DNA of 48,160 nucleotides. Source: Comamonas sp. SCN 65-56 (GTDB lineage Bacteria > Pseudomonadota > Gammaproteobacteria > Burkholderiales > Burkholderiaceae_C). Numbering within the stretch: the first letter of the stretch is position 1; each line of letters begins with the position of its first letter. The position numbers and the translations under genes were made by a program. This document shows, one piece after another, positions 5,427 to 47,482 of the stretch. The notes beneath the pieces are model-generated. The model was not told the origin of the DNA and made no database searches. It worked only from the letters and a program-made list of their open reading frames with translations. Location: assembly GCF_001724135.1 (NCBI RefSeq), contig NZ_MEDS01000014.1:1-48160 (forward strand), read 5' to 3'.

Positions 5427-5475
5427 TTTTGATAGCTTAATGCGAATAACCAATAAGCGTTACAGCGATTTTAAT
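5427..5475 (+). repeat. Dispersed palindromic repeat, copy A
   Basis: Contains TTTTGATAGC at its left, then TGCG..., AATAAGCGTTACAGC and ATTTTAATG, in the same order as the other copies. It occupies almost the whole obgE-proB gap and ends in the proB start codon, so it supplies the proB leader. Confidence 0.6.
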
Positions 5476-6619
5476 GAAAAATTCAAGCTCTCCGCTGCGT
5501 GACGCGCACCGCATCGTCGTCAAGGTCGGCTCCAGCCTTGTGACCAACGAAGGGCGCGGACTGGATGCGCAGGCGATTGGCGAGTGGGCCCGCCAGCTCG
5601 CGGCCCTGGTGCGCGGAGATGCCGGCATTCCGCGCGAAGTCATCATGGTCTCCAGCGGCGCGATTGCCGAAGGCATGAAACGCCTGGGCTGGCGCACCCG
5701 CCCGAGTGAAGTGCGCGAGCTGCAGGCCGCGGCCGCTGTCGGGCAGATGGGCCTGGCACAGATGTACGAAACCAAGCTGAGCGAGCAGCACCTGCCCAGC
5801 GCGCAGGTGTTGCTCACGCATGCCGACCTCGCCGATCGCGAGCGCTATCTCAACGCCCGCTCTACCCTGCTGACCTTGCTGGAGCATGGCGTGGTGCCGG
5901 TCATCAACGAAAACGACACCGTGGTCACCGATGAGATCAAGGTGGGCGACAACGACACCTTGGGTGCGCTGGTCACCAACCTCGTCGAGGCCGATGCGCT
6001 CATCATCCTCACCGATCAGCAGGGTCTGTACGCCGCCGACCCGCGCCGTGTACCCGATGCCGCGTTCATCCACGAAGCCCAGGCTGGCGACCTGCAGCTC
6101 GAAGCCATGGCGGGCGGAGCGGGTTCATCGATCGGCAAGGGCGGGATGATCACCAAGATCATCGCTGCCAAGCGTGCCTCGGGCTCGGGCGCGGCCACCG
6201 TGATCGCATGGGGGCGCGAACCCGACGTGCTGCTGCGCCTGGCGCGGGGCGAATCCATTGGCACGCTGTTGACAGCGCATACCCACAAGCACCAGGCACG
6301 CAAGCAGTGGATGATGGACCACTTGCAATTGCGCGGCTCGGTCACCGTGGATGCCGGCGCCGCCGCAGTGCTGCGCGAGGCCGGCAAGAGCCTGCTGCCT
6401 ATCGGCATGGTGGCCGTCGAGGGGGAATTCGTGCGCGGCGACGTGATCGCGGTGCGCGACGCCGCCGGTTCCGAAATTGCCAGGGGCCTGGCCAATTACG
6501 CCAGCGCCGAAGCGCGCCTGCTGTGCCGCAAGCCGTCTTCCGAATTCGAACGCTTGCTCGGCTATGCGGCCGATCCGGAAATGGTGCACCGTGACAACAT
6601 GGTGCTCACTCAGGGCTGA
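5474..6619 (+). CDS. proB: Glutamate 5-kinase
   Basis: Catalyses ATP-dependent phosphorylation of glutamate, the first step of proline synthesis. The 381-residue protein has the amino-acid kinase domain ([11 protein letters not shown] near the start, [10 protein letters not shown] and [11 protein letters not shown] for substrate binding). A C-terminal PUA domain covers about 285-370. The full length matches the E. coli type with PUA. No clear ribosome binding site precedes the ATG; the leader consists of the dispersed repeat copy A. It converges on rppH with a 19-bp gap and no obvious terminator. Confidence 0.96.
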
Positions 6620-6638
6620 TGGCGCACCAGCTCGCGCC

Positions 6639-7301
6639 CTATTGAATCGGTGGGCGCACTTGTGGATTGTCCGCCTCCGGTTGGGGATCCGGATCAAAGC
6701 TGGCGCCTGGCGGGAGTTCCACACCCGGATGCACCAGCATGGAACCTGACCGATAGGCGCTGACATAGTCCGCTCCAGCGTGGTCGCGCCCGCGCATGCT
6801 GGAGCGCAGATAGCGATTGCGCTGCAAGGTGCGCGGCAGAAAGCGCGAAAGCTCGGTCAAGGCCAGTTCGTAGACTCCGCGCTTGAACTCCACCACGACA
6901 TCGAGTGGCACCCAGTAATCGTTCCAGCGCCAGGCATCAAACTCCGGGTGGTTGGTGGCGCGCAAGTTCAGATCCCAATCATTGCCCGTGAGCTGCAGCA
7001 AAAACCAGATCTGTTTTTGTCCCTTGTAGTGTCCGCGTGCATCCCGGCGGATATAACGGTCCGGCACCTCGTAGCGCAACCAGTCCCGCGTACGGGCAAC
7101 CACACGCACGTGGTGGGCCAAGAGCCCAACCTCTTCGTGCAGCTCCCGGAACATCGCCTCTTGAGGACTTTCGCCCCGATCGATGCCACCCTGCGGAAAC
7201 TGCCAACTGTGCGTACCTAAGCGTTTGCCCCAAAATACCTGGTTTCTCTGGTTGAGCAGAATGATGCCGACATTTGGCCTGAAGCCTTCCCTGTCGAGCA
7301 T
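6639..7301 (-). CDS. rppH: RNA pyrophosphohydrolase (Nudix)
   Basis: Removes pyrophosphate from the 5' end of mRNA and so triggers decay. The Nudix box is complete: [20 protein letters not shown] at residues ~38-57, then VGL. The family start [17 protein letters not shown] fixes the ATG at 7301, although the frame stays open upstream to 7766. The C-terminus is longer than in E. coli (220 against 176 residues), with a Pro-rich tail often seen in Burkholderiales. The gene diverges from proS with a 90-bp gap. Confidence 0.95.
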
Positions 7302-7391
7302 AATCGAACCCCAATTCTTGCAAATTGAGTCCATTATGCACGCTTGCATTCCTGCGGCAAGCGCTGTCACTGCGGACAGCAAAGTCACGCG

Positions 7392-9140
7392 ATGAAAGCC
7401 TCCCAGTTTTTTATTTCCACCCTCAAGGAAGCCCCCGCCGACGCCGAGATCGTCAGTCACCAGTTGATGATGCGCGCCGGCCTCATCAAGAAGCTCGGCG
7501 CGGGCATCTACAACTACATGCCGATGGGGCTGCGGGTGATCCGCAAGGTCGAAGCCATCGTGCGCGAAGAGATGAACCGCGCTGGCGCCGTGGAATGCAC
7601 CATGCCCGTGGTGCAGCCAGCCGAGCTGTGGCAGGAGACCGGGCGCTTTGAAAAAATGGGCCCCGAGCTGCTGCGCATCAAGGATCGCCACCAGCGCGAC
7701 TTCGTGATTCAGCCCACCAGCGAAGAGGTAGTGACCGACATCGCGCGCCAGGAGCTGCGCAGCCACAAGCAGTTACCGAAAAACTTCTACCAGATCCAGA
7801 CCAAGTTCCGCGACGAACGTCGCCCGCGCTTTGGCCTGATGCGCGGGCGCGAGTTCATCATGAAGGACGCCTATTCCTTCGACAAGAGCCGCGAAGCGGC
7901 GCAGATCAGCTACCAGTCCATGCGCGCGGCCTATGCGCGCATCTTTGATCGCTTCGGGCTCTCGTACCGCGCAGTGCGCGCTGATTCGGGCGCGATTGGT
8001 GGCGACCTGTCCGAGGAATTCCAGGTGATCGCCGCCACCGGCGAGGACGCCATCGTCTATTGCGCGGCCAGCGATTACGCCGCCAACATGGAGAAGGCCG
8101 AGAGTGCACCGCCCGGCGCCGCCCGCCCTGTCCCCGGGGAGGCGCAAACACTCACGCCCACGCCGGGCAAGAGCACCTGTGCGGCCGTGGCCGAGTTGCT
8201 CGGGCTGCCGCTTGAGCGCACAGTCAAATCGCTGGTGCTGGCGACGGATGAGAAAAACGAGGCCGGTGACATCGTGGGTGCCAGGGTCTGGCTGCTGCTG
8301 CTGCGCGGCGACCACGACATGAACGAAGTCAAGGTATCCAAGGTGGCGGGACTGGACGCGGGTTTCCGCTTTGCCACCGTGGCCGAGATCGAGGAGCACT
8401 TCGGCGCCAAACCAGGCTACCTCGGGCCCTTGAACCTGCTCAAGCCCGTCACCATCGTGGCCGACCGCGAAGTCGCGGTGATGGCCGACTGGGTCTGCGG
8501 CGCCAACCGCGAAGACTTTCACGTCACCGGCGTGAACTGGGGGCGCGACCTGCCCGAACCGGCGCTGGTGGCCGATCTGCGCAACGTGGTGGCGGGTGAC
8601 CCCTCGCCCGACGGCAAAGGCGAACTCACGATCGAGCGCGGCATCGAGATCGGCCACGTGTTCTACCTGGGCACCAAGTACTCGAAAGCGATGAACGCCA
8701 CCTTCCTCGGCGAGGATGGCAAGCCTGCATTCTTTGAAATGGGTTGCTATGGCATCGGTATTACGCGCCTGCCTGCCGCCGCGATCGAGCAGAATCACGA
8801 CGAGCGCGGCATCATCTGGCCCGATGCGATCGCGCCCTTCACCGTCGTGCTCTGCCCCATAGGCATGGATCGAAGCGAGGCGGTTCGCAACGCAGCGCAA
8901 AAGCTGCATGCGGATTTGATCGCAGCGGGCGTCGATGTCATACTGGACGACCGTGGCGAGCGCCCCGGCGCGATGTTTGCCGACTGGGAGCTGATCGGCG
9001 TGCCGCATCGCGTGGTGCTCTCGGACAGAGGCCTCAAGGAAGGCCAAGTGGAGTACCAGCACCGGCGCGCAAGCACAGCCACCCAGATGGATCTTGCAGA
9101 CGTCGCACACTACCTTTTGGATCACATCGGCAAGCAATGA
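7392..9140 (+). CDS. proS: Prolyl-tRNA synthetase (bacterial type, with editing domain)
   Basis: A class II synthetase of 582 residues. The start [15 protein letters not shown] matches the family, so the in-frame ATG at 7344 is too early. Motif 2 is seen in [17 protein letters not shown] and motif 3 in [17 protein letters not shown]. Between them, at about 225-405, lies the INS domain, which deacylates Ala-tRNA-Pro. The C-terminal anticodon-binding domain includes the segment [19 protein letters not shown]. The next gene overlaps the stop codon by 4 bases (ATGA), so the two are translationally coupled. ybaK, which clears Cys-tRNA-Pro, is also in this window. Confidence 0.97.
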
Positions 9141-9784
9141 AGGGATTGGAAACCACTCGCAGGCACTGGCTGCTGGCACTGGGTGCAGGCCCGGCCGGTT
9201 GGCTGGGTCTGCCTGCGGCAGCCCATGCAGGGGGGCAGATCGAGGAACCCCTGGCGGATTCGGTACGCAGCGCCCTAAGCGCTGCGGTTACTGATCTGGC
9301 GCCGCCCGAGCCGGTCTTTGCCAGCACCGAGGGGCGCATCACCTATCTTCGCTGGCTCGGAACGATGAGCGATCGGCTGCGCGCACGCAAAACCAGTTGG
9401 GAGCAGCGGCGCGATTTCCTTCAGACCGTCTGGTACGAATCCAAGCGCGCTGGCCTGGATGAATCACTGGTGTTGGGCCTGATCCAGGTGGAGAGCGCCT
9501 TCCGCAAGTTTGCCGTGTCTTCCGTCGGGGCGCGCGGCTACATGCAGGTGATGCCGTTCTGGTCGCGCCTCATCGGCGACAGCGATGTCGGCAAGCTGTT
9601 CCACCTGCAGACCAATCTGCGCTTTGGCTGCGTGATCCTGCGCCACTACCTGGACCGTGAAAACGGCGATCTGTACATGGCGCTGGGTCGCTACAACGGC
9701 AGCCGCGGCCGATCGCACTACCCCAACGCCGTTTTCGCCAACCAGCGGCACTGGAAATTTCAGGAATCGACGCGCAGCGCCTGA
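9137..9784 (+). CDS. Exported lytic murein transglycosylase (SLT domain)
   Basis: A 215-residue protein with a signal peptide whose [12 protein letters not shown] start fits a twin-arginine (Tat) leader, ending near AAHA. The soluble-lytic-transglycosylase fold follows: the catalytic Glu is in [21 protein letters not shown], then MQVMPFW and ALGRYNGS. It should cleave peptidoglycan in the periplasm to anhydromuropeptides. The start overlaps the proS stop codon (ATGA). The 3' end overlaps the convergent CorC-type gene by 25 bp. Confidence 0.88.
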
Positions 9785-11094: not shown

Positions 11095-11172
11095 GGGCCA
11101 GGCAGAAGTGGCGGGGCGCCGCGTTCGGCAAACCAGTGTAACGGGCGGCCCGCGGGCGGTTCGGCGTGTAGA

Positions 11173-12078: not shown

Positions 12079-12182
12079 CAAGCCAGCGACTGTAACGGCT
12101 TGCACCCTCTTTGCTGCGTTGCAAGGTCAAACGTGGCACGATCGCTCCATCCCTTTTCATTTGATGACAGGAGTGTTGCCTC

Positions 12183-13166
12183 ATGGTTCGTGCCGTCCAG
12201 ATCCGCCAGCACGGCGGCCCCGAAGTCCTTGAACTCGTCGACCTGCCGGTGGGCGAGCCCGGCCCGGGCGAAATCCGCATTCGTCACCACGCCATCGGGC
12301 TCAACTTCATCGACGTGTACTTTCGCACCGGCCTGTACGCGGGCGCCTTGCCGATGGTGCCGGGCGGCGAAGGGGCAGGCGTCATCGAAGCCGTGGGCAT
12401 GGGCGTCACCCACCTGAAGGTGGGCGACCGCGCGGCCTACGCCGGGCCGCAGGGCAGCTATTGCGAGGCGCGCGTGCTGCCCGCCACCACCGTCTGCAAG
12501 CTGCCGGACGCCATACCCTTCGATACCGGCGCGGCGATGATGCTCAAGGGCCTGACGGCGCAATACCTCTTGAAAAAGTCGCGCCCTGTCGAGGGGCTGG
12601 AGCCGGGCGACTTCGTGCTTTTTCACGCCGCCGCCGGGGGCGTGGGCCTGATCGCCTGCCAGTGGGCACGCGCGCTTGGGTTCAAGCTCATCGGCACCGC
12701 AGGCAGTGATGAAAAATGCGCTCTGGCGCTTGCCAATGGTGCAGCATATGCTATCAATTACGCCAAGGAAGACTTCGCTGCGCGCGTGAAGGAGATCACC
12801 GGCGGCCAAGGGGTGAAGGTGGTCTACGACTCGGTTGGCAAGGACACATGGGAAGGCTCGCTCTCATGCCTGCGCCCCTTTGGCCTGATGGTGAGCTTTG
12901 GCAATGCCTCGGGGCCGGTGCCGCCGTTTGCGCCCGGCATCCTGGGCGCCAAGGGGTCGCTGTACGTCACGCGCCAAACGCTGTTCACCCACATGGCCAC
13001 GCGTGCCTCCACGCAGGCCATGGCAGACGACCTGTTTGACGTGGTCGCGAGCGGCAAGGTGGCCATCCACATCGGCCAGCGACACGCCCTCGCCGACGTG
13101 CAGCAGGCACACCGCGACCTGGAAGCGCGCAAGACGACGGGCTGCACCATCCTGACGCTGCCCTGA
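12183..13166 (+). CDS. NADPH:quinone oxidoreductase (zinc-free MDR family)
   Basis: A 327-residue medium-chain reductase of the QOR type. The N-terminal GroES-like fold (VRAVQIRQHGGPEVLELV) and the NADPH-binding Rossmann domain with AAAGGVGLIACQWA are present. The family segment GLNFIDVYFRTGLY is clear, and structural-zinc cysteines are lacking. It is likely to reduce quinones one electron at a time. Residues ~177-193 are encoded by DNA that matches the dispersed repeat family (copy C), yet still align with the family in frame and without length change. Confidence 0.9.
   Translation: MVRAVQIRQHGGPEVLELVDLPVGEPGPGEIRIRHHAIGLNFIDVYFRTGLYAGALPMVPGGEGAGVIEAVGMGVTHLKVGDRAAYAGPQGSYCEARVLPATTVCKLPDAIPFDTGAAMMLKGLTAQYLLKKSRPVEGLEPGDFVLFHAAAGGVGLIACQWARALGFKLIGTAGSDEKCALALANGAAYAINYAKEDFAARVKEITGGQGVKVVYDSVGKDTWEGSLSCLRPFGLMVSFGNASGPVPPFAPGILGAKGSLYVTRQTLFTHMATRASTQAMADDLFDVVASGKVAIHIGQRHALADVQQAHRDLEARKTTGCTILTLP
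12710..12759 (-). repeat. Dispersed palindromic repeat, copy C, inside the quinone oxidoreductase gene
   Basis: Read on the minus strand it begins TTGATAGC, continues through TGCTGC and ends CAAGCGCCAGAG then CGCATTTTTC. These are the elements shared by the other copies, in the same order and spacing. It lies wholly within coding sequence and keeps the frame. Confidence 0.6.
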
Positions 13167-13365: not shown

Positions 13366-13441
<76 letters not shown>

Positions 13442-13447
13442 AAATGT

Positions 13448-13524
13448 TGGCGGAGTGGACGGGACTCGAACCCGCGACCCCCGGCGTGACAGGCCGGTAT
13501 TCTAACCAACTGAACTACCACTCC
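13448..13524 (-). tRNA. tRNA-Asp (anticodon GTC)
   Basis: A 77-nt cloverleaf on the minus strand: acceptor GGAGTGG, D arm AGTTCAGTTGGTTAGA, anticodon loop CTGTCAC (anticodon GTC), T loop TTCGAGT and encoded CCA. It is separated from tRNA-Ala by 6 bp. Confidence 0.95.
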
Positions 13525-13575
13525 AGCACAGCTTTTGTTGCTACGTTTACCGCAGCAACCAAGTGCCGTACAACT

Positions 13576-13651
13576 TGGCGACCCTACGGGGATTCGAACC
13601 CCGGTACTCACCGTGAAAGGGTGATGTCCTAGGCCTCTAGACGATAGGGTC
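13576..13651 (-). tRNA. tRNA-Glu (anticodon TTC)
   Basis: A 76-nt cloverleaf on the minus strand with the characteristic CGTCTAGAGGCC D-arm region, anticodon loop CTTTCAC (anticodon TTC), T loop TTCGAAT and encoded CCA. It is the first of three tandem tRNAs downstream of gltX, the gene for glutamyl-tRNA synthetase. Confidence 0.95.
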
Positions 13652-16375: not shown

Positions 16376-16386
16376 GATTTTTCTGA

Positions 16387-16434
16387 AACGATAGCTATTT
16401 GCGCTTTATCAAAGGCGCTTTTCAATCTATTTAT
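16387..16434 (+). repeat. Dispersed palindromic repeat, copy B
   Basis: ACGATAGCTATTTGCGCTTT, then ATCAAAGGCGCTTTTC, in the purF-metZ gap. The inner GCGCTTT...AAGGCGC can fold into a hairpin. It is the only repeated or structured element in this 100-bp gap. Confidence 0.65.
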
Positions 16435-16475
16435 CCATGAAACGCAGTACTGGCAGGCGCTGCGCGCTCACTTTT

Positions 16476-19396: not shown

Positions 19397-20860
19397 CTAG
19401 GAATCGGAGTGCTTGCCGTGCATGTGCGGCACGCCATGCCTGAGGATGCCGCCGACCGTGTAGAACGATCCAAAGACGACGATTCTATCAGTCAGCCTGC
19501 TGGCCGCGACGGCCGCATCCAGCGCCGATTGCGGGTCGGAAAACACCTCGCTCTTGACGATGCGCCGCCCGCCACCGCCTTCGCCGCTGCTGCCACGGCG
19601 CGAGCGCGTGACCGACAGATGGGGCTGGTCGTCCTGCGCCTTGGCCGCTTGCGCCAGATCGACACGCGGCGCCTCGTCTGCCACCGCCACGGGCGACGCG
19701 TGCAAGGCCTCCTGCTGCGCATGAAAGTGCTCCCAGCGCTGTTGCAAATGCACTGCAGCCTCGGCGCGCGGTGTCGGCAGATCGGTGAAGTACCAGCGGT
19801 CGATCAGCGGCCCCATCTTCTCGAAAATGCCGGTGATGTCCTTGTCCGCCATTGCGCCAAACACCGCATGCGTCAGGCGAAAGTGCCCCATGGTGCCCAT
19901 GCTGGCCGCCAACGCGGCCACCGCGTGCGGGTTGTGGCCCACGTCCAGCACCACCACCGGCTGACCGGGCACCACTTCAAAGCGCCCGGGCAGCTCCACC
20001 AGCGCCAGGCCCGCGCGCACCGCCTGGGCGGAGATCGGCAATTGCTCTCGAATGGCCTCCAGCGCCGCCAGCGCGCCCGAGGCATTGAAGAGCTGGTTGG
20101 CCCCGCGCAGCGCCGGGTAGGACATGCCGGCATAGCGCCGTCCGCGTGCGGCCCAGCTCCACTGCAGCTTGTCGCCCGAGTAATTGAAATCGCGCCCGAA
20201 GAGCCACAGATCCGCGCCAATCTCCCCGGCGTGATCGATCACGCTCTGCGGCGGCACCGGGTCGCAGACCACCACCGGACGGCCGGCGCGCATGATGCCG
20301 GCCTTCTCGCGGCCTATGGTTTCGCGGTCAGGGCCAAGGTATTCGGCATGGTCCACATCGATGCTGGTGATCACCGCGCAGTCGGCGTCGATGATGTTCA
20401 CCGCATCCAACCGCCCGCCCATGCCCACCTCCAAAATCGCCACGTCCACCTTGGCCTGGCTGATCAGGCGCAGGATGGCGAGCGTGGTGAATTCGAAATA
20501 GGTGAGCTGAATTTCATCGTCATTTTGGACTCTAGCACTTTCTACGGCTGCGAAGTGCGCTATCAATTCATCAGGCTTGACGGTTTCGCCACCGATGCGG
20601 CAGCGCTCTTCGAAATGCACCAGATGCGGCGAGGTATAGACGCCGGGACGGTAACCCGCCTGCAGCGCCACCGCCTCGATCATGGCGCAGGTGGAGCCTT
20701 TGCCGTTGGTGCCGGCCACGGTGATCACCGGACAGTCAAAGTGCAGTCCAAGGCGCTCGGCCACCCGCGCCACGCGATCCAGGCCCATCTCTATGGTGTG
20801 CGGATGCAGGTGCTCGCAGTACTGCAGCCAGTCATCCAGAGTGTCAGGTAGTGTTTTCAT
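19397..20860 (-). CDS. folC: Bifunctional folylpolyglutamate / dihydrofolate synthase
   Basis: A Mur-ligase-like enzyme that adds glutamate to dihydropteroate and to folates. The ATP loop is TVAGTNGKGSTCAMIE; YTSPHLVHFEERCRI and the GMGGRLDAVN segment are typical. At 487 residues it is longer than E. coli FolC (422). Part of the excess is a basic, glycine-rich loop near residues 375-440 (SRRGSSGEGGGG). A second local difference, residues ~98-113, is encoded by copy D of the dispersed repeat. It heads the folC-dedD-cvpA-purF-metZ-gltX series. Confidence 0.95.
   Translation of the reverse strand: MKTLPDTLDDWLQYCEHLHPHTIEMGLDRVARVAERLGLHFDCPVITVAGTNGKGSTCAMIEAVALQAGYRPGVYTSPHLVHFEERCRIGGETVKPDELIAHFAAVESARVQNDDEIQLTYFEFTTLAILRLISQAKVDVAILEVGMGGRLDAVNIIDADCAVITSIDVDHAEYLGPDRETIGREKAGIMRAGRPVVVCDPVPPQSVIDHAGEIGADLWLFGRDFNYSGDKLQWSWAARGRRYAGMSYPALRGANQLFNASGALAALEAIREQLPISAQAVRAGLALVELPGRFEVVPGQPVVVLDVGHNPHAVAALAASMGTMGHFRLTHAVFGAMADKDITGIFEKMGPLIDRWYFTDLPTPRAEAAVHLQQRWEHFHAQQEALHASPVAVADEAPRVDLAQAAKAQDDQPHLSVTRSRRGSSGEGGGGRRIVKSEVFSDPQSALDAAVAASRLTDRIVVFGSFYTVGGILRHGVPHMHGKHSDS
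20521..20568 (-). repeat. Dispersed palindromic repeat, copy D, inside folC
   Basis: On the minus strand it reads GAATTGATAGCGCACTTCGC, then GTAGAAAGTGCTAGAG and TCCAAAATG. TTGATAGC, a GCGC/AGTGC-type stem, CTAGAG and CCAAAAT all appear in the family order. It is in frame with folC and encodes roughly HFAAVESARVQND. Confidence 0.7.
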
Positions 20861-22165: not shown

Positions 22166-23593
<1,428 letters not shown>

Positions 23594-23599
23594 GCATCG

Positions 23600-23645
23600 A
23601 ATACGGCTCCAGCGCTTGATGGGAAAGCGCGAGCAGCTATCAAAA
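23600..23645 (-). repeat. Dispersed palindromic repeat, copy E
   Basis: On the minus strand: TTTTGATAGCTGCTCGCGCT, then TTCCCATCAAGCGCTGGAGCC. This is one of the cleanest copies, with the GCGCTT...AAGCGC hairpin intact. It fills the argG-queC gap directly before the terminator stem. Confidence 0.8.
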
Positions 23646-23672
23646 GCGTCAGCTATTGGCTGACGCTTTTTC
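23642..23672. terminator. Bidirectional terminator between argG and queC
   Basis: AAAAGCGTCAGC and GCTGACGCTTTT form a perfect 12-bp stem with a 5-nt loop, followed by TCTTTT on the plus strand. On the minus strand the A-rich start gives TTTTG. The stem overlaps the last codons and the stop of queC (23653-23655), so part of the terminator is coding sequence. Confidence 0.85.
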
Positions 23673-24363
23673 TTTTCCACTCGGCCCAGCCATGCGCGCG
23701 CAATTGGCAGGCCGGGCACTGGCCGCAGCCATGGCCCCAGTCGTGCAGCGCGCCGCGCTCACCGAGGTAACAAGTGTGCGAATCACGGCGAATCAGCTCG
23801 ACCAGCGCCTCTCCGCCCAGCGCCTGCGCCAGCGCCCAAGTCTGCGCCTTATCACGCCACATCAGCGGGGTTGCTATCACCAAGGGGCGCTCCACCCCCA
23901 GGCTGAGCGCCACCTGCAAGGCCTTGAGCGTGTTGTCGCGGCAATCGGGGTAGCCCGAGTAATCCGTCTCGCTCATGCCGCCGACGAGCACCGTGAGGCC
24001 GCGACGGTACGCCAGCGCCGCCGCCAGCGTGAAAAACAGCAGGTTGCGCCCGGGCACGAAGGTGTTGGGCAGGCCGTCCGCCTGCATCCTGATGGCCACC
24101 TCGTCCTGCATCGCGCTGCCACCCAGCTCGCGCAGCACGTCCACATGCAGCAGATGATCGTCGCCCAGCACGCCGGGCCAGTGCATTTGCAAGAGGCCAC
24201 GCCGCAGTTGCTCGCGGCAAGCGAGCTCGACGTGATGGCGCTGGCCGTAGTCAAAACCGATCGTCTCGACCACTGCATATCTGGAGAGCGCCCAAGCCAG
24301 GCAGGTCGCGGAATCCTGCCCGCCCGAGAACAGCACCAGCGCACGGCGCGAATCCAGCGTCAT
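23653..24363 (-). CDS. queC: 7-cyano-7-deazaguanine (preQ0) synthase
   Basis: Converts carboxy-deazaguanine to preQ0 in queuosine synthesis. The 236-residue protein has the PP-loop [18 protein letters not shown] near the start. The C-terminal zinc site is CYLGERG...[11 protein letters not shown] (four Cys). The true ATG is at 24363 and overlaps the stop of the yhhQ gene (ATGA). The two genes therefore form an operon: synthesis and uptake of queuosine precursors under one probable preQ1 riboswitch. Confidence 0.95.
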
Positions 24364-25081: not shown

Positions 25082-25107
25082 GCGGTGCCGCAAGCGCGAA
25101 AAAACCA

Positions 25108-25165
25108 GTCAAATCAAGGCATAGCGCTTGTAATGCATGCGTATGATGCTCCTTTTTTCATAGTA
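25108..25165 (-). repeat. Possible degenerate copy F of the dispersed repeat
   Basis: On the minus strand: ATCATACGCATGCATTACAA, then GCGCTATGCCTTGATTTG. It shares TGCATGCG, CAAGCGCTA and GCC...ATTTG with the family but lacks a clean TTGATAGC. It lies in the yhhQ-ppnP divergent gap. Confidence 0.35.
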
Positions 25166-25247
25166 TCATCGTATTCGTCCGAGTGGTTCCGGGCTCCGGG
25201 CAACGCAGCTACCATTGCCGCCTGTTTTTTCAAACCTCCCGCACGCC

Positions 25248-29809: not shown

Positions 29810-30316
29810 TCATCCCGGTTCCAGCAAGGCGCAATGCACCGGCTTTGCACCCAGCACCTGCACGCACACCTGCGCAGCAATCTGCACCAGATATCCGCGT
29901 CGCCCGCCATTGATCGCAATCCGGTCGAGCGCCAGGATGCTTTCCTCGATATACACCGGCATCGCCTTGCGCACGCCAAACGGCGAAGTGCCACCGACCT
30001 GATAGCCGCTGTGGCGCTGCGCCACCTCGGGCGCGCAGGGCTCGACCGACTTGGCGCCAATCTGCCGTGCCAGGTTCTTGGTAGACACCTTGCAGTCGCC
30101 GTGCATGAGCACGATCAGCGGCTTGCCGTCCTGGTCCTGCATCACCAGGGTCTTGACCACCCAGTGTTCCTCCAGCCCCAACTGGCGCGCCGATTCATGC
30201 GTGCCACCGTGCTCCACATAGTCGTAGACATGCTCGGTGAACGCCACCCCGTGGGCGCGCAACATCTGCGTTGCCGGGGTTTCACTCACGTGCTGCGACT
30301 TGTCTTTCTTTGCCAT
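29810..30316 (-). CDS. ybaK: Cys-tRNA(Pro) deacylase (YbaK/EbsC)
   Basis: A stand-alone editing domain of 168 residues that hydrolyses Cys-tRNA-Pro formed by prolyl-tRNA synthetase. Family segments are KTLVMQDQDGKPLIVLMHGD, VSTKNLARQIGAKSV and GYQVGGTSPFGVRKAMPV, the last with the substrate-contact GGTSP. It diverges from an alpha/beta hydrolase gene with a gap that contains copy G of the dispersed repeat. Confidence 0.94.
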   Translation of the reverse strand: MAKKDKSQHVSETPATQMLRAHGVAFTEHVYDYVEHGGTHESARQLGLEEHWVVKTLVMQDQDGKPLIVLMHGDCKVSTKNLARQIGAKSVEPCAPEVAQRHSGYQVGGTSPFGVRKAMPVYIEESILALDRIAINGGRRGYLVQIAAQVCVQVLGAKPVHCALLEPG

Positions 30317-30324
30317 GATTCATC

Positions 30325-30375
30325 AAATCGATAGCTGTCAACGATTGTCCACCAAGCGCAAAGACCGTATTTTGC
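30325..30375 (+). repeat. Dispersed palindromic repeat, copy G
   Basis: AAATCGATAGCTGTCAACGA, then TTGTCCACCAAGCGC and AAAGACCGTATTTTGC. It lies 9 bp before the ybaK start (minus strand) in the divergent promoter region, so it may affect expression of ybaK or the hydrolase. Confidence 0.7.
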
Positions 30376-30456
30376 TTGAACGTTTGCCGGGCAGCTCCGG
30401 CGCCTGCGGCACGCAAGGCCGCGCAGGGCTGCAGCGGCCTTGACCATAATCGGGCG

Positions 30457-31383
30457 ATGTACCAGGAACGCCTTCCCGCCCGCCACGAAACCTTCAACCT
30501 GCGCGGCCTGCCCTGCCATCTGCTGCACTGGGGCGGCGCCGACAGCACGCTGACGCCCCTGGTCTTGCTGCATGGCTGGATGGATGTGGCTGCCTCCTGG
30601 CAGTTTGCCGTCGACGCGTTCAGCGATGGCTTCACGCAGGCCAGGCAGATTGTTGCACTGGACTGGCGCGGCTTCGGGCGGTCCATGCCGCAGTCACCGG
30701 CGGATTGCTACCACTTCGTGGACTACCTGGCGGATCTGGACGCGCTGCTGGAGCGCTGTTTCGGCGACCTGCCTGTGGATCTGGTGGGCCACAGCATGGG
30801 CGGCAACGTGGCCATGATGTACGCCGGTGCACGCCCGGCGCGCATTCGCAGGCTCGTCAATCTGGAGGGCTTCGGATTGCCGGCCACCCAGCCCTCCCAG
30901 GCCCCCGGGCGCTTTGCGCAGTGGCTGGACGAGCTGCGCCAATTGCGCCAGGGCGGCATCACGCTCAAGAGCTACGACAGCCTGGCGGGCGTGGCCGAGC
31001 GTCTGATGAAGACCAATCCGCGCCTGGCGCCGGACAAGGCCACCTGGCTGGCGCAGCATTGGGCGCGGCCCGGTGACGATGGTCGCTGGCACATCCTGGG
31101 CGACGCGGCGCACAAGGTCACGAGCGCGCAGCTGTACCGCGTGGACGAGGCGCTGGCGCTTTACGCGGCGATCACCGCGCCGGTGCTCAGCGTCGAAGCA
31201 GACCACGACAGCCTGGCACTCTGGTGGAAGGAGCGCTTCACCCTGCGGGAATACCACGAGCGCATCGGCCATGTGCGCCAGTTGCGCAGCGCCACCATCC
31301 GCGACGCCGGACACATGCTGCACCACGACCAGCCCGAAGCAGTCGCCGGCGTGATCGAGCAGTTTCTTGAGCCCAAGCCCTGA
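30457..31383 (+). CDS. Alpha/beta-fold hydrolase
   Basis: A 308-residue cytosolic hydrolase with HGWMDVAASWQF as the oxyanion-side segment. The nucleophile elbow is VGHSMGGNVA, an acidic residue lies in SVEADHDSL, and the catalytic His is in RDAGHMLHHDQP. These are the complete Ser-Asp/Glu-His elements of the family. The substrate is not predictable. The start MYQERLPARHETFN at 30457 is preferred over 30376, which lies in repeat-derived DNA. It reads toward prfB, 101 bp upstream of it. Confidence 0.88.
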   Translation: MYQERLPARHETFNLRGLPCHLLHWGGADSTLTPLVLLHGWMDVAASWQFAVDAFSDGFTQARQIVALDWRGFGRSMPQSPADCYHFVDYLADLDALLERCFGDLPVDLVGHSMGGNVAMMYAGARPARIRRLVNLEGFGLPATQPSQAPGRFAQWLDELRQLRQGGITLKSYDSLAGVAERLMKTNPRLAPDKATWLAQHWARPGDDGRWHILGDAAHKVTSAQLYRVDEALALYAAITAPVLSVEADHDSLALWWKERFTLREYHERIGHVRQLRSATIRDAGHMLHHDQPEAVAGVIEQFLEPKP

Positions 31384-31418
31384 TTGCGCTTCCAGACAAG
31401 CGCCGGACGCTATCGAAG
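31381..31418 (-). repeat. Dispersed palindromic repeat, copy H
   Basis: On the minus strand: TTCGATAGCGTCCGGCGCTT, then GTCTGGAAGCGCAATCA. The GGCGCTT...AAGCGC hairpin is intact. It begins at the stop codon of the hydrolase gene. Confidence 0.7.
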
Positions 31419-31484
31419 ATGAAGCAAGCGGGTGCGTGAGAAAATTGCCAGCTATTTTGAACACCAGAACACGAGGATTTCCCC

Positions 31485-32603: not shown

Positions 32604-35318
32604 ATGATGAGAGAAGGCAACGCCGCGGCGGTGTATCGCCTGCAGTACGCCCCACCCGCGTTCTGGATCGAAAGCGTCGACCTCACGTTTGACCTCGACC
32701 CGGCCAAGACCCGCGTGCTCAGCAAGATGCGCGTGCGCCGCAACCCCGACGTCGCCCTCGAGCCGCTGCGCCTGCATGGCGAGGAGCTGAATCTGGCGCG
32801 CGTGATGGTCAACGGCGCGGGCACCAGCTTCAAGATCGAGGGCGAGCAACTGGTGCTCGAAAACCTGCCCGAAGGCAACGAGCCGTTTGATCTGGAAATC
32901 TTCAGCACCTGTGCTCCAGAGAAGAACACCCACCTGATGGGCCTGTACGTCAGCAACGACACCTTCTTCACGCAGTGCGAAGCGCAGGGTTTCAGGCGCA
33001 TCACCTATTTCCTCGACCGCCCGGACGTGATGGCGAGCTTCAGCGTGCTCTTGAGAGCCGACAAGAAACGCTATCCGGTGCTGCTCTCCAACGGCAATCT
33101 GGTGGAATCGGGCGATCTGGAGGGCGGGCGCCACTTCGCGCGCTGGGTCGATCCGCACAAGAAGCCCTGCTATCTGTTCGCCCTAGTCGCGGGCCAGCTC
33201 GTCGCACGCGAGCAGCAGATCGTGAGCCGCGCGGGCAAGAACCATCTGCTGCAAGTCTGGGTGCGCCCGGGCGATCTCGGCAAGACCGAGCACGCGATGA
33301 ACTCGCTGATGGCCGCGATCGCCTGGGACGAGACGCGCTTTGGCCTGAGTCTGGATCTTGACCGCTTCATGATCGTCGCCACCAGCGACTTCAACATGGG
33401 CGCGATGGAGAACAAGGGCCTAAACATCTTCAACACCAAATACGTTCTGGCCAGCCAATCCACGGCGACCGACGTGGACTACGCCAACATCGAAGGCGTG
33501 GTCGGCCATGAGTACTTCCACAACTGGACGGGCGACCGCGTCACCTGCCGTGACTGGTTCCAGCTCTCGCTCAAGGAAGGCCTGACGGTCTTTCGCGACC
33601 AGGAATTTTCGATGGACATGGCGGGCAGCGCATCGGCGCGGGCGACTCGCCGCATCGAAGACGTGCGCGTGCTGCGCACCGCCCAGTTCCCCGAGGACGC
33701 CGGCCCCATGGCGCACCCGGTGCGCCCCGACAGCTACGTCGAAATCAACAATTTCTACACCGTCACGGTGTATGAAAAAGGCGCGGAAGTCGTTCGCATG
33801 CAGCGCACGCTGGTCGGCGGACACGAAGGCTTTGCGCGCGGCATGAAGCTGTATTTCGAGCGCCACGACGGCCACGCCGTCACCTGCGACGACTTCGCGC
33901 AGGCGATCGCCGACGCCAACCCCGGCACCGCGCTGGCCCAGCACCTGGATCAGTTCAAGCGCTGGTACAGCCAGGCCGGCACGCCGCGCGTGAAAGCCGT
34001 GGGCAGCTACGACGCCGCTGCGCAAACCTGGACCCTCACGCTCTCGCAAAGCTGCCCGGCGACGCCCGGCCAGCCCGGCAAGCTGCCCTTCGTCATTCCG
34101 GTGGCGCTGGGCCTCGTCGCACAAGACGGCAGCGCCCTGCCCTTGCACCTGGAAGGTGAAGCGCAGACGAGCGGCACCGAACGCACGCTGGTGCTGCACG
34201 AGGCGAGCCAGACCTTCGTCTTCACGCACGTAGCGAGCGCGCCCGTGCCCTCCATCCTGCGCGGCTTCAGCGCGCCGGTGATCCTGGAGATGGTCTACAG
34301 CGACGCCGAGCTACTCACGCTGCTGGCGCACGACAGCGACCCCTTCAACCGCTGGGAAGCGGGGCAACGCCTGCTGCTGCACGTCGCTATCAATGCGATA
34401 GGGGCTGACGCAGACCAGGCGGACGCTACAGGCCAAAATGCCTTGATACCGGATGCAGTGATCGCGGCGCTGCGCGCGGTGCTGCGGCATCCGCAGCTCG
34501 ATGCCGCGTTCAAGGAGCTGGTGCTCACGCTCCCCTCCGAAGCCTACATCGCCGAACAGCTGGCCGTGGTCGATCCACAAAAAGTGCACGCGGTGCGCGA
34601 GGCGCTGCGCCTGCAGCTCGCGACCGCGCTGCAAGCCGATTGGCTCTGGGCCTGGGAACAGCACCAGACCAGCGGTGCCTACCACCCCGACGCGGCCAGC
34701 AGCGGGCGACGCGCACTCGCCGCTCTGGCCCTGGCCATGCTGTGCCTGGCGGCCACGCACGGCGGCGACCCCGTCTGGCCGGGCAAGGCGTATCAGCGCT
34801 TCAAGGATGCAGGCAACATGACCGATCGCCTGGGCGCGCTGGGCGCGCTGGTGCTGTGCGGCCATGAACTCGCGCAGCCGGCACTGGCACGCTTTCACGA
34901 GCGCTTCAAGGACGACGCGCTGGTGCTGGACAAATGGTTTGCCCTGCAAGCCGGGCGCTCAGATCGCGGCGGTGACGTGCTGCCCGCCGTCCAGGCGCTG
35001 ATGAAGCACCCGGATTTCAACCTGAAAAACCCGAATCGCGCGCGCAGCCTGATCTTCAGCTACTGCAGCGCCAACCCCGGGGCCTTCCACCGCACGGACG
35101 GCGCGGGCTACGCCTTCTGGGCCGATCAGGTGCTTCTGCTGGATGCCTTCAACCCGCAGGTCGCGGCGCGCCTGGCCCGCGCGCTCGACCGCTGGAAAAA
35201 GCTCGCCGAGCCCTACCGCGACAGCGCCCGCGCCGCGATCGAGCGCGTGGCCGCCGCGCCCAAGCTCTCCAACGACGTGCGCGAACTCGTCACCCACGCG
35301 CTTGCCGTTCACGAATGA
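32604..35318 (+). CDS. pepN: Aminopeptidase N
   Basis: A broad-specificity zinc aminopeptidase (M1 family) of 904 residues, close to the E. coli length. The exopeptidase motif MGAMENKGLNIF lies near 265-276. The zinc site is HEYFHNWTGDRVTCRDWF near 302-319 (HExxH plus the downstream Glu in SLKEGLTVFRDQEF). The C-terminal Ig-like and ARM-type domains are complete. Residues ~596-613 (NAIGADADQADATGQNA) are encoded by copy I of the dispersed repeat and look like an inserted acidic loop. AAAGGA precedes the start. The next ORF overlaps its stop codon (ATGA). Confidence 0.96.
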   Translation: MMREGNAAAVYRLQYAPPAFWIESVDLTFDLDPAKTRVLSKMRVRRNPDVALEPLRLHGEELNLARVMVNGAGTSFKIEGEQLVLENLPEGNEPFDLEIFSTCAPEKNTHLMGLYVSNDTFFTQCEAQGFRRITYFLDRPDVMASFSVLLRADKKRYPVLLSNGNLVESGDLEGGRHFARWVDPHKKPCYLFALVAGQLVAREQQIVSRAGKNHLLQVWVRPGDLGKTEHAMNSLMAAIAWDETRFGLSLDLDRFMIVATSDFNMGAMENKGLNIFNTKYVLASQSTATDVDYANIEGVVGHEYFHNWTGDRVTCRDWFQLSLKEGLTVFRDQEFSMDMAGSASARATRRIEDVRVLRTAQFPEDAGPMAHPVRPDSYVEINNFYTVTVYEKGAEVVRMQRTLVGGHEGFARGMKLYFERHDGHAVTCDDFAQAIADANPGTALAQHLDQFKRWYSQAGTPRVKAVGSYDAAAQTWTLTLSQSCPATPGQPGKLPFVIPVALGLVAQDGSALPLHLEGEAQTSGTERTLVLHEASQTFVFTHVASAPVPSILRGFSAPVILEMVYSDAELLTLLAHDSDPFNRWEAGQRLLLHVAINAIGADADQADATGQNALIPDAVIAALRAVLRHPQLDAAFKELVLTLPSEAYIAEQLAVVDPQKVHAVREALRLQLATALQADWLWAWEQHQTSGAYHPDAASSGRRALAALALAMLCLAATHGGDPVWPGKAYQRFKDAGNMTDRLGALGALVLCGHELAQPALARFHERFKDDALVLDKWFALQAGRSDRGGDVLPAVQALMKHPDFNLKNPNRARSLIFSYCSANPGAFHRTDGAGYAFWADQVLLLDAFNPQVAARLARALDRWKKLAEPYRDSARAAIERVAAAPKLSNDVRELVTHALAVHE
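34393..34440 (+). repeat. Dispersed palindromic repeat, copy I, inside pepN
   Basis: TGCGATAGGGGCTGACGCAG, then ACCAGGCGGACGCTACAGG and CCAAAATGCC. It shares GATAG, GACGC...GGCG, CGCTACAGGCC and AAAATG with other copies. It is in frame in pepN, in the linker between domains, and upstream GCTATCAA may be a second boundary. Confidence 0.6.
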
Positions 35319-37997: not shown

Positions 37998-38015
37998 GAA
38001 TTCACTCCTCAAAAA

Positions 38016-38054
38016 ACCGCTTGAAGCGCTTGTTTGGAAAGCGCTACAGCCTTC

Positions 38055-38066
<12 letters not shown>
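38016..38066 (+). repeat. Dispersed palindromic repeat, copy J
   Basis: AACCGCTTGAAGCGCTTGTT, then TGGAAAGCGCTACAGCC and TTCTCATTC. The AGCGCTT...AAGCGCT stem is intact. It covers the pccA stop codon and the gap to the VOC gene. Confidence 0.65.
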
Positions 38067-40095
<2,029 letters not shown>

Positions 40096-40103
<8 letters not shown>

Positions 40104-40218: not shown

Positions 40219-40237
40219 GGTGGTTCTCCTCGCCTGC

Positions 40238-41770: not shown

Positions 41771-41799
41771 GCTTGCGTCCTTGGTTGAAATGGTTTGAC

Positions 41800-41856
41800 T
41801 CTTCAATCGATAGCTGCCAGCGCTTGTCCTGCTTGCGCTGAGAGCAGATTTCTTGC
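41800..41856 (+). repeat. Dispersed palindromic repeat, copy K, forming the meaB 3' end
   Basis: TTCAATCGATAGCTGCCAGC, then GCTTGTCCTGCTTGCGCT and GAGAGCAGATTTCTTG. It spans the meaB stop codon and encodes its last ~16 residues ([15 protein letters not shown]). The stop itself comes from the TCAATCGATAGC end of the repeat. Confidence 0.7.
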
Positions 41857-42828
41857 CGCAGTACTGGCGGCAATGCGCCCCGCGACGACGTCCGACTGCA
41901 TTTGCACCAGCAGCGCGGCGACGGCAGGATGGCTGCGAAACGCCGTGCGCAGCCCGGCGTCGATGCGCTCCCACATCCACGCCAGCGCCTGCTGCTGACG
42001 CCGCGCGGCGATCTCGCCATTGGCCGTTTGCAGCGCACGGTATTCACTCACCGCCGCCCAGAAATCCTGCACGCCCTCGCCCTTCAAGGCGCTGATCGTG
42101 ATCACCTTGGGGTGCCAGCGCTGCGGATCATTCTGCGCATGCGCCGGGTTGCCCTGCATCGCCATCAGGCGCAGGCTGGAGGTGATCTGCGTGCGCGTGC
42201 GAATCGCAGCCCTCGGGTCGATGTCGGCCTTGTTGACCACCACCAGGTCAGCGAGCTCCATCACGCCCTTCTTGATCGCCTGCAAATCGTCGCCTGCGTT
42301 GGGCAGTTGCAGCACGCAGAACATGTCGGTCATGCCGTGCGCCGCGGTCTCGCTCTGGCCCACGCCCACGGTCTCGACGATGACCACGTCGTAGCCCGCG
42401 GCCTCGCACACCAGCATGGCCTCGCGCGTTTTCTCGGCCACGCCGCCCAGCGTGCCGCTGCTGGGGCTGGGGCGGATGTAGGCGTTTTCCTCGCTGCAAA
42501 GCTGCTGCATGCGCGTCTTGTCGCCCAGGATGGAACCGCCCGAGACGGTGGAAGATGGATCAATCGCCAGCACCGCGACCTTGAGCCCCTGCGCGGTAAG
42601 ATACAGGCCGAGTGCCTCGATGAAGGTGGACTTGCCCACGCCCGGCACGCCGCTGATCCCCAGGCGCAGCGCACGACCCGTCTGCGGCAGCAAGGCGGTG
42701 AGCAACTCGTCGCCCTGCGCGCGGTGGTCGGCGCGGGTGGATTCCAGCAGCGTGATGGCCTTGGCCATGGCGCGGCGGCGCATGGGTATCGACGCCGCCA
42801 AGGCTTTCAGGATTTCCGAGTTGTTCAT
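41803..42828 (-). CDS. meaB: Methylmalonyl-CoA mutase chaperone GTPase (MeaB/ArgK)
   Basis: A 341-residue G3E GTPase that protects and reloads methylmalonyl-CoA mutase with adenosylcobalamin. The P-loop is GVPGVGKST at 60-68. [18 protein letters not shown] and the switch segment ETVGVGQSE follow, with NKAD for guanine binding. The start overlaps the stop of the Mrr-like gene (ATGA). The C-terminal residues are encoded by dispersed repeat copy K, which may have replaced the original end. Confidence 0.95.
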
Positions 42829-43712: not shown

Positions 43713-43752
43713 CCGCCTGTGTCCCTGGTCGCAATGAAATACGCTCAACGTA

Positions 43753-44172
43753 TCAAAGAATCTCGAAAGCCCGGCCATCTGGCAGGCGGTAGCGAGAAAA
43801 ATCGCGCACATCCTGAGTGAAAACGGTGCATACACCCGTCTGCGCCGCCAGCCAGACCAGCGATGCATCGGCCAGATCCATCTCGGTGCGTGGGGTTTCG
43901 GTGTATCGATCCATCAAGGGAATGAACTCCGTCAAATCAGCCTGTGAAAACGGAAACACCGACACTGCTGCCGCGCCTATCCATCGCAAAAAGGTATAGC
44001 GTTGTGGCGGCTGCAACAGATAACTGGCTTCGACCACGCAAGGCCAGGTGGTAGACAAGGCCCAGCGTTCAGCCGCAGCCAATTGAAACAACTCGGCGTA
44101 ATGCTGCGCACGCGCCTGGTGCATGCCAAACACGGCCACCATCGCACTCGCATCGACCAGTGCCGCAGCCAT
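43753..44172 (-). CDS. PIN-domain ribonuclease toxin (VapC-like)
   Basis: A 139-residue PIN-domain protein with all four acidic positions: Asp7 (ALVDASAMVA), Glu48 (CVVEASYLL), Asp99/Asp102 (MDLADASLVWLA) and Asp121 (VFTQDVRDFSRYRL). Its start overlaps the antitoxin stop by one base (TGATG), the usual VapBC arrangement. It probably cleaves tRNA or mRNA when free. It is followed after 40 bp by the Mrr-like gene. Confidence 0.87.
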   Translation of the reverse strand: MAAALVDASAMVAVFGMHQARAQHYAELFQLAAAERWALSTTWPCVVEASYLLQPPQRYTFLRWIGAAAVSVFPFSQADLTEFIPLMDRYTETPRTEMDLADASLVWLAAQTGVCTVFTQDVRDFSRYRLPDGRAFEIL

Positions 44173-44453
44173 CAGGCAATACCGTGCTTGGCTTTGAGCC
44201 GCGCGATCAAGGCCACCCGAGACCCTTCAGTGTCATAGGGCAACTCCCGGTCGGCAAAAGCACTGCCATCGGCCTGATAAGCCTTGGTGCGTTCCTCGGC
44301 CTTGAGCGCCACCATCAGCGCATACGGATCCTTGCTTCCCAGCGCACGCTCCACCGCATCGATGATGAACTGCGATTTGGTGATGCCTTTTTGCTGCGCC
44401 GCCAACTCAAGGCGTTTTTCCAGCAAAGGCTCCATGCGAACGGAAACAGCCAT
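44172..44453 (-). CDS. Antitoxin with ribbon-helix-helix domain (VapB-like)
   Basis: A 93-residue protein. The N-terminal half is a ribbon-helix-helix DNA-binding domain (MAVSVRMEPLLEKRLELAAQ, ITKSQFIIDAVERAL). The C-terminal half should wrap the PIN toxin. GGAGGG lies 8 bases before the ATG. A 17-bp palindrome sits in its promoter and is the likely autoregulatory operator. Confidence 0.83.
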   Translation of the reverse strand: MAVSVRMEPLLEKRLELAAQQKGITKSQFIIDAVERALGSKDPYALMVALKAEERTKAYQADGSAFADRELPYDTEGSRVALIARLKAKHGIA

Positions 44454-44472
44454 GATGCACCCTCCAGTTGAA

Positions 44473-44489
44473 ATACGGTATTACTGTAT
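44473..44489. promoter_or_regulatory. Palindromic operator of the toxin-antitoxin pair
   Basis: ATACGGTATTACTGTAT, an imperfect palindrome (ATAC...GTAT arms, inner GTA/TAC) in the 50-bp gap between mcm and the antitoxin. Ribbon-helix-helix antitoxins typically bind such sites to repress their own promoter. Confidence 0.5.
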
Positions 44490-44503
44490 CTCGAACGCGG
44501 ATA

Positions 44504-46660
<2,157 letters not shown>

Positions 46661-46753
46661 GGTGGCTGCTCGCTTGGCTGTGAAAATGTTCGGCCTCTGG
46701 CGCTCTGCCGGGCCTGAATGTACGAATGCCTCAAGTTTACCCGATTTGTAATT

Positions 46754-46766
46754 ATTAATTTTTAAT
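46754..46766. promoter_or_regulatory. AT-rich palindrome between mcm and the GntR regulator
   Basis: ATTAA-TTT-TTAAT, a perfect 5-bp inverted repeat inside a very AT-rich stretch (46747-46770) midway in the 129-bp divergent gap. It is a candidate operator for the GntR/FCD protein, and the stretch must also hold the promoters of both genes. Confidence 0.4.
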
Positions 46767-46789
46767 TCTTTTTGGGTTACAGTCGCCCC

Positions 46790-47425
46790 ATGTCCACCGC
46801 CACGCTTGCCCCGCGCGCGCTCTACGAACAGGTCGCAGAGCAGCTGCGCCTGCGCATCTTCCACCGCGAGCTGGAGCCCGGCAGTTGGATAGACGAGCTG
46901 AAAATCGCCGAGGAATTCGGCATCAGCCGCACGCCGCTGCGCGAGGCGCTCAAGGTGCTCGCCACCGAGGGGCTGGTCACGATGAAGCTGCGCCGCGGTG
47001 CCTACGTCACTGAAACCTCGGACAAGGACCTGCGCGACGTCTACCACCTGCTCTCGCTGCTGGAGAGCGACGCCGCAGCAGCAGTCGCGCGCGGCGCCAG
47101 CAGCGCCGACCTCGCCAGCCTTGAGGCGCTGCACGACGAACTTGAGCAGGCGACGGGCGAGCGCGAGCGCTTCTTCGCGCTCAACGAGCGCTTTCACATG
47201 CAGTTGCTGCAATTGGCCGACAACCGCTGGCGCGAGCAAATGGCCGCCGACCTGCGCAAGGTGATGAAGCTCAACCGCCACAATTCGCTGTTCAAGCGCG
47301 GGCGCATCGCCGACTCACTTGCCGAACACCGCGCGATCATGGCCGCGCTCAAGGCACGCCGGCCCGAGGCTGCCGCGCAGGCCATGCAGGCGCACTTCGC
47401 CAACGGTCTGGAAGCTGCCGCCTGA
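46790..47425 (+). CDS. GntR-family transcriptional regulator (FCD subfamily)
   Basis: A 211-residue regulator. The winged helix at 10-75 contains [21 protein letters not shown] and [21 protein letters not shown]. The FCD all-helical effector domain at 85-210 contains [27 protein letters not shown] and [20 protein letters not shown] domains bind carboxylic acids, often with a metal. Divergence from mcm suggests it controls the propionyl-CoA operon in response to a pathway acid or its CoA ester. The start at 46790 ([14 protein letters not shown]) follows the family; 46772 is possible. Confidence 0.9.
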
Positions 47426-47432
47426 TACTATT

Positions 47433-47482
47433 GTTTTCATAGCTTGTGGCGCTTTGTGATCAAGCGCTGCAGCATGAAAACG
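47433..47482 (+). repeat. Dispersed palindromic repeat, copy L
   Basis: TTTTCATAGCTTGTGGCGCT, then TTGTGATCAAGCGCTGCAG and CATGAAAACG. The GGCGCTT...AAGCGCT hairpin is intact. It lies 8 bp after the regulator's stop and supplies the start codon of the dusA fragment. Confidence 0.75.

Follow-up and report, generated by a model that had tools for sequence, protein, structure and literature searches.

A contig of Comamonas sp. SCN 65-56 (contig 14, NZ_MEDS01000014.1, positions 1 to 48,160; hereafter the window, meaning the whole 48,160-nucleotide stretch that was analysed) raises the question of what kind of element is the short palindromic repeat that recurs along it. The sequence-only reading of this DNA had described a scattered family of imperfect palindromes, resident in the chromosome and without a name, and had offered for it mobilisation by a repetitive extragenic palindromic (REP)-associated tyrosine transposase (RAYT), RNA processing or termination, or a protein-binding site. 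Our comparison of the source genome (3.60 Mb, 51 contigs) with related genomes points to the last of these, as a class, as the best option: the repeat is probably, though with considerable reserve, a long recognition site in double-stranded DNA built around a dyad core, neither a transposon nor an RNA hairpin. Copies occupy the same places in relatives, three copies in coding sequence came without a 67-bp insertion, codons that fit the site are kept, conservation goes column by column, and no recent copying is seen.

The repeat family is genuine and non-random. The strict pattern GATAGCT-N(2-8)-GCGCTT-N(3-14)-AAGCGC occurs 27 times in the source genome and not once when read backwards. These 27 copies were aligned into a covariance model, R1, in which conservation at the seeding bases is overstated, a column census of 47 own copies being less biased. 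Genome-wide R1 gave at least 149 matches at E ≤1, a lower bound with 150 candidates per genome scored, and 40 in the window plus 402 kb; on the window with filters off it recovered copies A, B, D, E, G, H, J, K and L and did not recover C, F and I. A scoring matrix built solely from 129 copies of other genomes found 13 matches of at least 0 bits in the window, against a single match (3.96 bits) in 20 pooled order-2 Markov shuffles of it. With the reversed matrix no match reached 0 bits, either in the window, where the best score was -4.1, or across a 400-kb sample of the source genome, and none reached 10 bits in 2,385,181 bases of loci at least 1500 bases long.

Alignment of 157 distinct full-length copies (28 from the source genome and 129 from 80 other loci, with 60 bases added per side) revealed a unit of about 67 bp, longer than the 45-55 bp first described, in which conservation begins and ends within a few bases and the flanks lie at background. 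The consensus, ATTRCTAYNAWTTTGATAGCTGCTNGCGCTTGCYGGACAAGCGCTGGAGSCCGATTTGACTTNAAAAT, consists of the dyad core AGC...GCGCTTG-N5-CAAGCGC...GSC and A/T-rich arms. In the 400-kb sample 45 matches reached 0 bits, 40 of them 10 bits and 32 of them 30 bits, a density of about one repeat per 10 kb, from which some 360-400 copies in the source genome are extrapolated. The earlier estimate of one per 4 kb holds within the window when weak copies are included, and not in the larger sample. Thus, the scattered palindromic family proved real, while its unit length, its overall density and one of its members (copy C) had been wrong and another (copy D) is doubtful.

The occurrence of both orientations was borne out by the 50 copies of at least 10 bits in 448 kb, counted by hand, of which 25 lie on each strand. 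With 89% of the sequence called coding, 30 of these 50 are nonetheless intergenic or cover a gene end; the other 20 overlap a called open reading frame (ORF) by at least 60 bases, 10 running with the gene and 10 against it. The 23 between-gene copies of at least 25 bits have 24 ends that face a stop codon, and at 20 of these ends the stop falls somewhere between 25 bases within the copy and 1 base beyond it. When genus relatives, whose copies are not independent, are added, 49 stop distances are available, of which 73.5% are at most 10, as against 14.6% under uniform placement in the gaps. The preference for gene boundaries reported before is therefore confirmed by the copies outside ORFs and by the bias to stop codons, and limited by the 20 copies within ORFs.

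Evidence on how copies arise came from three of the coding copies, compared between bearing and non-bearing genomes. In purL, identified by Pfam, the copy lies antisense over a variable loop. A match was obtained in 58 of 60 genomes, and 30 orthologues were read, of which 19 bear the site at 26-61 bits, two score 8 and 12, and nine are without it; the loop lengths differ by a few residues, not by 22. A tyrosine codon under the site is TAT in 18 of the 19 bearing genes, while the TAT share in their own flanks is 0.10-0.58, and a glutamine codon is CAA in all 17 bearing genes that have glutamine there, against a CAA share of 0.03-0.45 in the flanks. The gene of the CCA-adding enzyme bears the site in 13 of the 30 orthologues read. 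There the conserved RRD-x-TIN-x-IA motif is encoded under the left arm, and in most bearing genes the right arm reaches the DPY motif. ATA GCT is present in 13/13 bearing and 0/17 non-bearing genes and ACT in 12/13 bearing ones, with flanking shares in the bearing genes of 0-0.14 for ATA and 0-0.12 for GCT. For PepN, 53 of 60 genomes gave a match and 30 loci were read; of the 26 orthologues parsed, 13 bear the site. The loop spans 64-69 residues in the bearing proteins and 57-67 in the 13 others, and part-way sequences occur in genomes G171, G305 and G314. At all three genes the site overlies native protein sequence; substitution in place fits these alignments, and a 67-bp insertion does not.

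The comparison of orthologous places points to great age. DNA syntenic to the window was obtained from eight genus relatives, and copies of at least 30 bits were present in both genomes in 53 of 62 anchored comparisons. The length differences at the nine absences are -26, -13, -10, -1, -1, 0, 0, +9 and +169, and no value comes close to -67; one absence or more, including that of G418 versus G413, is an anchoring miss, as G418 carries that copy. Over 47 orthologous pairs, identity is 0.48 in weak columns, compared with 0.31 for unrelated copies, and 0.77 against 0.69 in strong columns. The mean pairwise identity of 47 own copies (at least 20 bits) is 32.9 of 68, and no two are near-identical, the best pair sharing 47/68 as against 43-50 in column-shuffled sets; likewise, the best pair of an Ottowia bin has 53 positions alike, compared with 48-55 after shuffling. 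The shared places, the pattern of column identity and the lack of close pairs together indicate that the places are old, that their letters turn over, and that fresh copying has left no trace.

These data bear directly on the explanation that the repeat is an ancient REP-like or miniature inverted-repeat transposable element (MITE)-like mobile element, spread before the genera split and now surviving as relics with deleted or trimmed targets. Its sharp ends, the ends flush with stop codons and the scarcity of intermediate scores in 400 kb (32 of 45 matches at 30 bits or more) are what such an element would leave, and RAYT-family genes are common, being found in 104 of 120 family genomes at E 0.001, with 31 over the cut-off. 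We nonetheless consider this origin improbable, and the coding copies nearly refute it, as no insertion is seen at the three coding places, no clean 67-bp empty site appears among the nine absences, near-identical copies are missing and the columns have decayed unequally. Nor are copies associated with the transposase. RAYT genes over the cut-off occur in 3 of 13 genomes with strict copies and in 28 of 107 without, a co-occurrence based on the strict pattern, which misses genomes with looser copies; G389 holds 12 strict copies and no RAYT match at E 0.001. Copies close by on both flanks were seen in none of the 18 RAYT-like gene regions inspected; in three (L179, L182, L188) a weak match stands on a single side, no more than about 300 bp from the RAYT-like domain. 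The source genome does possess a clear RAYT gene (L175 5957-6685, G000:C42; NF047646, 205 bits), which runs to the contig end, and no R1 match lies in the 6.7 kb around it; a weak second relative was located at G000:C18:55314-55637 (28 bits). The suggestion of RAYT mobilisation thus found no backing in co-occurrence, flanking copies, close pairs or empty sites.

An RNA hairpin acting in mRNA 3' ends, in termination, processing or stability, would account for the 7-bp stem and for the preference for intergenic gaps and stop codons, and was weighed against the behaviour of the stem itself. As covariation on model-fitted rows is uninformative, it was assessed anew with the stem columns masked in the search, which yielded 274 copies (in the first 40 sources the reversed control gave 0, compared with 94). 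At the four G-C pairs the observed and expected pairing frequencies were 0.872/0.861, 0.916/0.916, 0.836/0.824 and 0.887/0.887, so that pairing equals the product of the column frequencies and no compensatory change is seen; a slight excess at the inner pairs, largest at 28/38 (0.745/0.689), is unexplained. The equal numbers of ORF copies in both directions speak against RNA as well, as does copy E, which has its own separate hairpin and T-run alongside. No Rfam family was matched in the window at gathering thresholds, nor did any overlap the copies of four loci when E values up to 10 were admitted. An RNA function is accordingly the least credible of the explanations considered here, and very unlikely.

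The columns behave as a bound DNA site might. In the census of 47 own copies, columns 16-18, 25, 26, 39 and 41 are conserved at 95% or more and others down to 31% (mean 61%), and the variance of column conservation is 7.2 times binomial. In the centre triplet TGG is exchanged for CCA and CAG for CTG, and in the right A-tract TTTT for AAAA, which is expected if a symmetric binder sees both strands alike. Two more specific ideas were dropped: phasing of A-tracts at 10.5 bp, for which a permutation test gave p 0.18 at that period and 0.40 across the 9.5-11.5 band, and an IHF site with the consensus WATCAANNNNTTR, which was matched on one strand by 2 of the 157 copies and on the other by 1. Outside the copies, AGCGCTT (156 versus 107), AAGCGCTG (71 versus 52.5) and GCTGGAG (234 versus 102) exceed the order-2 expectation, an excess that codon usage may explain.

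Strict matches were obtained in 13 of 120 sampled family genomes, with up to 144 per genome and zero in controls, and the true spread is wider, because G301, G305, G311, G313 and G318 have no strict match yet bear the PurL copy at 27-61 bits. Among 300 genomes drawn across the order, 3 of 9 family members matched (the source genome, G093 and G204), as did 1 of the 291 non-family genomes, which has a single, oddly spaced match. Named genomes, when scanned, yielded at least 118 matching stretches; the 80 listed include Acidovorax, Ottowia, Comamonas, Giesbergeria, Simplicispira, Diaphorobacter, Polaromonas, Paracidovorax and Paenacidovorax, along with assemblies titled just Comamonadaceae, Burkholderiales, Burkholderiaceae, Proteobacteria or Pseudomonadota. 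None of 50,697 phage records and 5 of 72,556 plasmid records matched, as did 5 contigs of IMG/VR. No paper on the repeat was found in open PubMed Central, the sole literature covered, where the excerpts of Rhodoferax papers mention CRISPR repeats only. These results, with those from Rfam, agree with the description of a resident chromosomal element without a name. The 13 strict-positive genomes hold 243 forward and 146 reverse strict matches, although contig strand is arbitrary; this excess may stem from the way in which a pattern with variable gaps is matched on the reverse strand. Three same-strand copies exactly 165 bp apart, apparently a tandem array, lie at G314:C1:1018213-1018609.

As regards the mechanism, a putative protein reading the dyad would give site-bearing DNA an advantage, and sequence already resembling the site would be pulled towards it where constraint is low, as at stop codons, in short gaps and in protein loops. 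As to the role, we narrowly favour a signal that biases DNA uptake or exchange by sequence and that molecular drive would have spread, like the uptake signal sequences (USS) and DNA uptake sequences (DUS); very similar traces would be expected of a site for a protein that organises the chromosome. We tentatively suggest that the Comamonadaceae may have an uptake or exchange signal of their own, independent of those of Neisseriaceae and Pasteurellaceae, in the form of a 67-bp dyad site with hundreds of copies per genome, which would reshape synonymous codons and loops of core enzymes in place. Sequence-specific transformation has been reported in this family for Verminephrobacter, according to excerpts of PMC4212676, and the site could underlie it.

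A site bound inside the cell by a protein for chromosome organisation, segregation or repair, with its copies directly selected and uptake not involved, belongs to the same class of DNA sites, and we hold it possible, if doubtful. The loose consensus and dyad core resemble the sites of intracellular binding proteins; both orientations occur, and the copies listed are evenly spread along three complete contigs (Kolmogorov-Smirnov p 0.95, 0.72 and 0.25). Replication polarity was absent in G314 and G369 and reached no more than a hint in G303 (p 0.083), in a test on 84, 46 and 20 places among the matches listed, with the origin assumed or scanned. A candidate protein is absent so far, and copies in housekeeping coding sequence would demand strong selection per site.

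The uptake signal and the origin by substitution in place also face evidence that does not suit them. The in-place origin was tested on three coding copies against non-bearing genomes, which is a narrow base. The non-bearing G323 likewise has TAT CAA in PurL, G414 of the same genus lacks both the CCA-enzyme and the PepN copies, and bearing PurL and PepN loops average a few residues longer, which is unexplained. Short motifs of the left arm are not enriched outside copies (GATAGCT 13 versus 19.8 expected; TTGATAGC 1 versus 5.6), so that few part-built sites are seen. For an uptake signal the density of about 1 per 10 kb is low beside about 1 per kb in USS and DUS, the unit is long at 67 bp, the own-copy identity is modest, and spacing is irregular, with coefficients of variation of 1.15 and 0.75 compared with 0.94 at random (P 0.88 and 0.13). 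We know of no receptor. Acidovorax temperans and an A. delafieldii genome both bear the site (L077 and L093), and A. temperans gave no transformants with A. delafieldii DNA in the excerpts of PMC4212676; this could reflect a failure of recombination.

Among known systems the USS of Pasteurellaceae and DUS of Neisseriaceae are described, in excerpts of PMC1626085, as having a 9-10-bp core at about 1 per kb and as not being insertions by a gap test. The repeat shares with them an origin by substitution and not insertion by the same test (here from the three coding copies and the genus comparison), both orientations, a non-coding preference with many coding copies, stable places across relatives and, with USS, AT-rich flanking motifs (excerpts of PMC1626085). 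It differs in its dyad core of about 67 bp at about 1 per 10 kb, in spacing no more regular than random where that of USS and DUS is more regular, and in a loose consensus (32.9 of 68; mean 61%) where theirs is very strong (same excerpts). As density, regularity and tightness of consensus are unlike, the repeat is not filed as a USS or DUS; it may work like one. PMC1939737, in its excerpts, is a paper on the drive of short oligonucleotides. The Betaproteobacterial repeat element (BRE), according to excerpts of PMC3110155, is likewise chromosomal and mostly intergenic, with some copies over ORF ends or wholly coding, and is present in Comamonadaceae; it measures 75-91 bp with 69% GC on average, forms tandem arrays, occurs also in Bordetella and reaches at most 29 copies, with 1 in Acidovorax sp. 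JS42, so that by this description length, GC content and host range set the repeat apart. Compared with REP/RAYT systems, the repeat is similarly a short interspersed palindrome at gene ends in a genome with a RAYT gene, and differs in lacking RAYT linkage or co-occurrence, recent copies and insertion, and in its copies in coding sequence. The HIP1 sequence of cyanobacteria is another iterated palindromic DNA site in coding and non-coding sequence for which no function is agreed; it has 8 bp and thousands of copies, as against about 67 bp and hundreds.

Of the twelve sites first named in the window, ten are supported, D is doubtful and C was rejected, its 3.5 bits at 12702 being at the level of the single shuffle match. 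Copy H is regarded as decayed on account of its low matrix score and its 32-bit orthologue. The table gives the copies, among them two additional ones.

Copies of the repeat and other features in the window. Bits are from the matrix of 129 foreign copies unless stated; relatives are genus relatives. Genes were called with a simple ORF caller, so start codons are uncertain and some copies inside ORFs cover ORF ends.
Feature	Position	Strand	Bits	Setting	Same place in relatives
Copy A	5417..5484	+	38.3	between tandem genes, overlaps stop of upstream gene (stop distance -3)	none anchored
Three consecutive tRNA genes	13369-13651	-			
Copy B	16376..16443	+	10.0 (weak)	intergenic	20-23 bits in G413, G415, G418, G419
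Copy D (doubtful)	20511..20578	-	14.5	inside called ORF	all below 0
Copy E	23588..23655	-	54.4	fills gap between convergent genes	58 and 69 bits in G413, G414
Terminator-type hairpin then T-run, separate, beside copy E	23640-23675				different hairpins there
Copy F	25100..25167	-	24.2	intergenic	19-79 bits (G413 51, G418 79)
Copy G	30316..30383	+	36.2	abuts start of minus-strand gene 29810-30316	27-64 bits in four relatives
Copy H (decayed)	31362..31426	-	15.5 with R1, -1.9 with matrix		orthologous copy 32 bits in G413
Copy I	34383..34450	+	20.9	inside pepN (peptidase M1 family, Pfam)	29-53 bits in seven genus relatives
Copy J	38001..38068	+	20.7	intergenic	57 bits in G413
Extra weak copy, newly found	38463..38530	+	14.1	inside called ORF	4 bits in G413
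Copy K	41795..41862	+	39.3	over 3' end of minus-strand gene 41803-42828	31 bits in G413
Extra copy, newly found	45114..45181	+	38.9	inside ORF 44468-46717 without Pfam match	39 bits in G413
Copy L	47424..47491	+	56.6	begins in stop codon of gene 46790-47425 (stop distance -2)	none anchored

Copies and partial copies were also seen in other genes. A Cas3-type gene (L045 10103-12751; Pfam Cas3_HD) has a copy of 46.5 bits inside it. A Pfam DUF1010 match (G303:C1:156184-156336, 77.7 bits) overlaps a strict copy at 156285-156314, so that part of some DUF1010 proteins is translated from the site; of 40 genomes searched, 15 had DUF1010 matches. Partial site matches lie in DUF1010 frames of L302 (NZ_KY913898.1, 2501-2554, 83% identity) and L303 (NZ_CP067036.1, 2501-2538, 87%), among class 1 integron cassettes and beside aminoglycoside- and beta-lactam-resistance genes, and may mark a Comamonadaceae-like origin of these cassettes. 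A partial match of 79% is found in L304 (LC623924.1, 2501-2553), a plasmid region that carries ere(A), blaIMP-1 and aac(6')-Ib; no integrase lies in the stretch viewed.

We found no close parallel for so long a recognition site forming by substitution at many places over conserved coding motifs. The case also shows that sharply bounded repeats are not necessarily mobile elements. If the site is indeed an uptake signal, a further bacterial family would have one, and both the protein that reads it and the reason why competent bacteria gather such sites would become testable.

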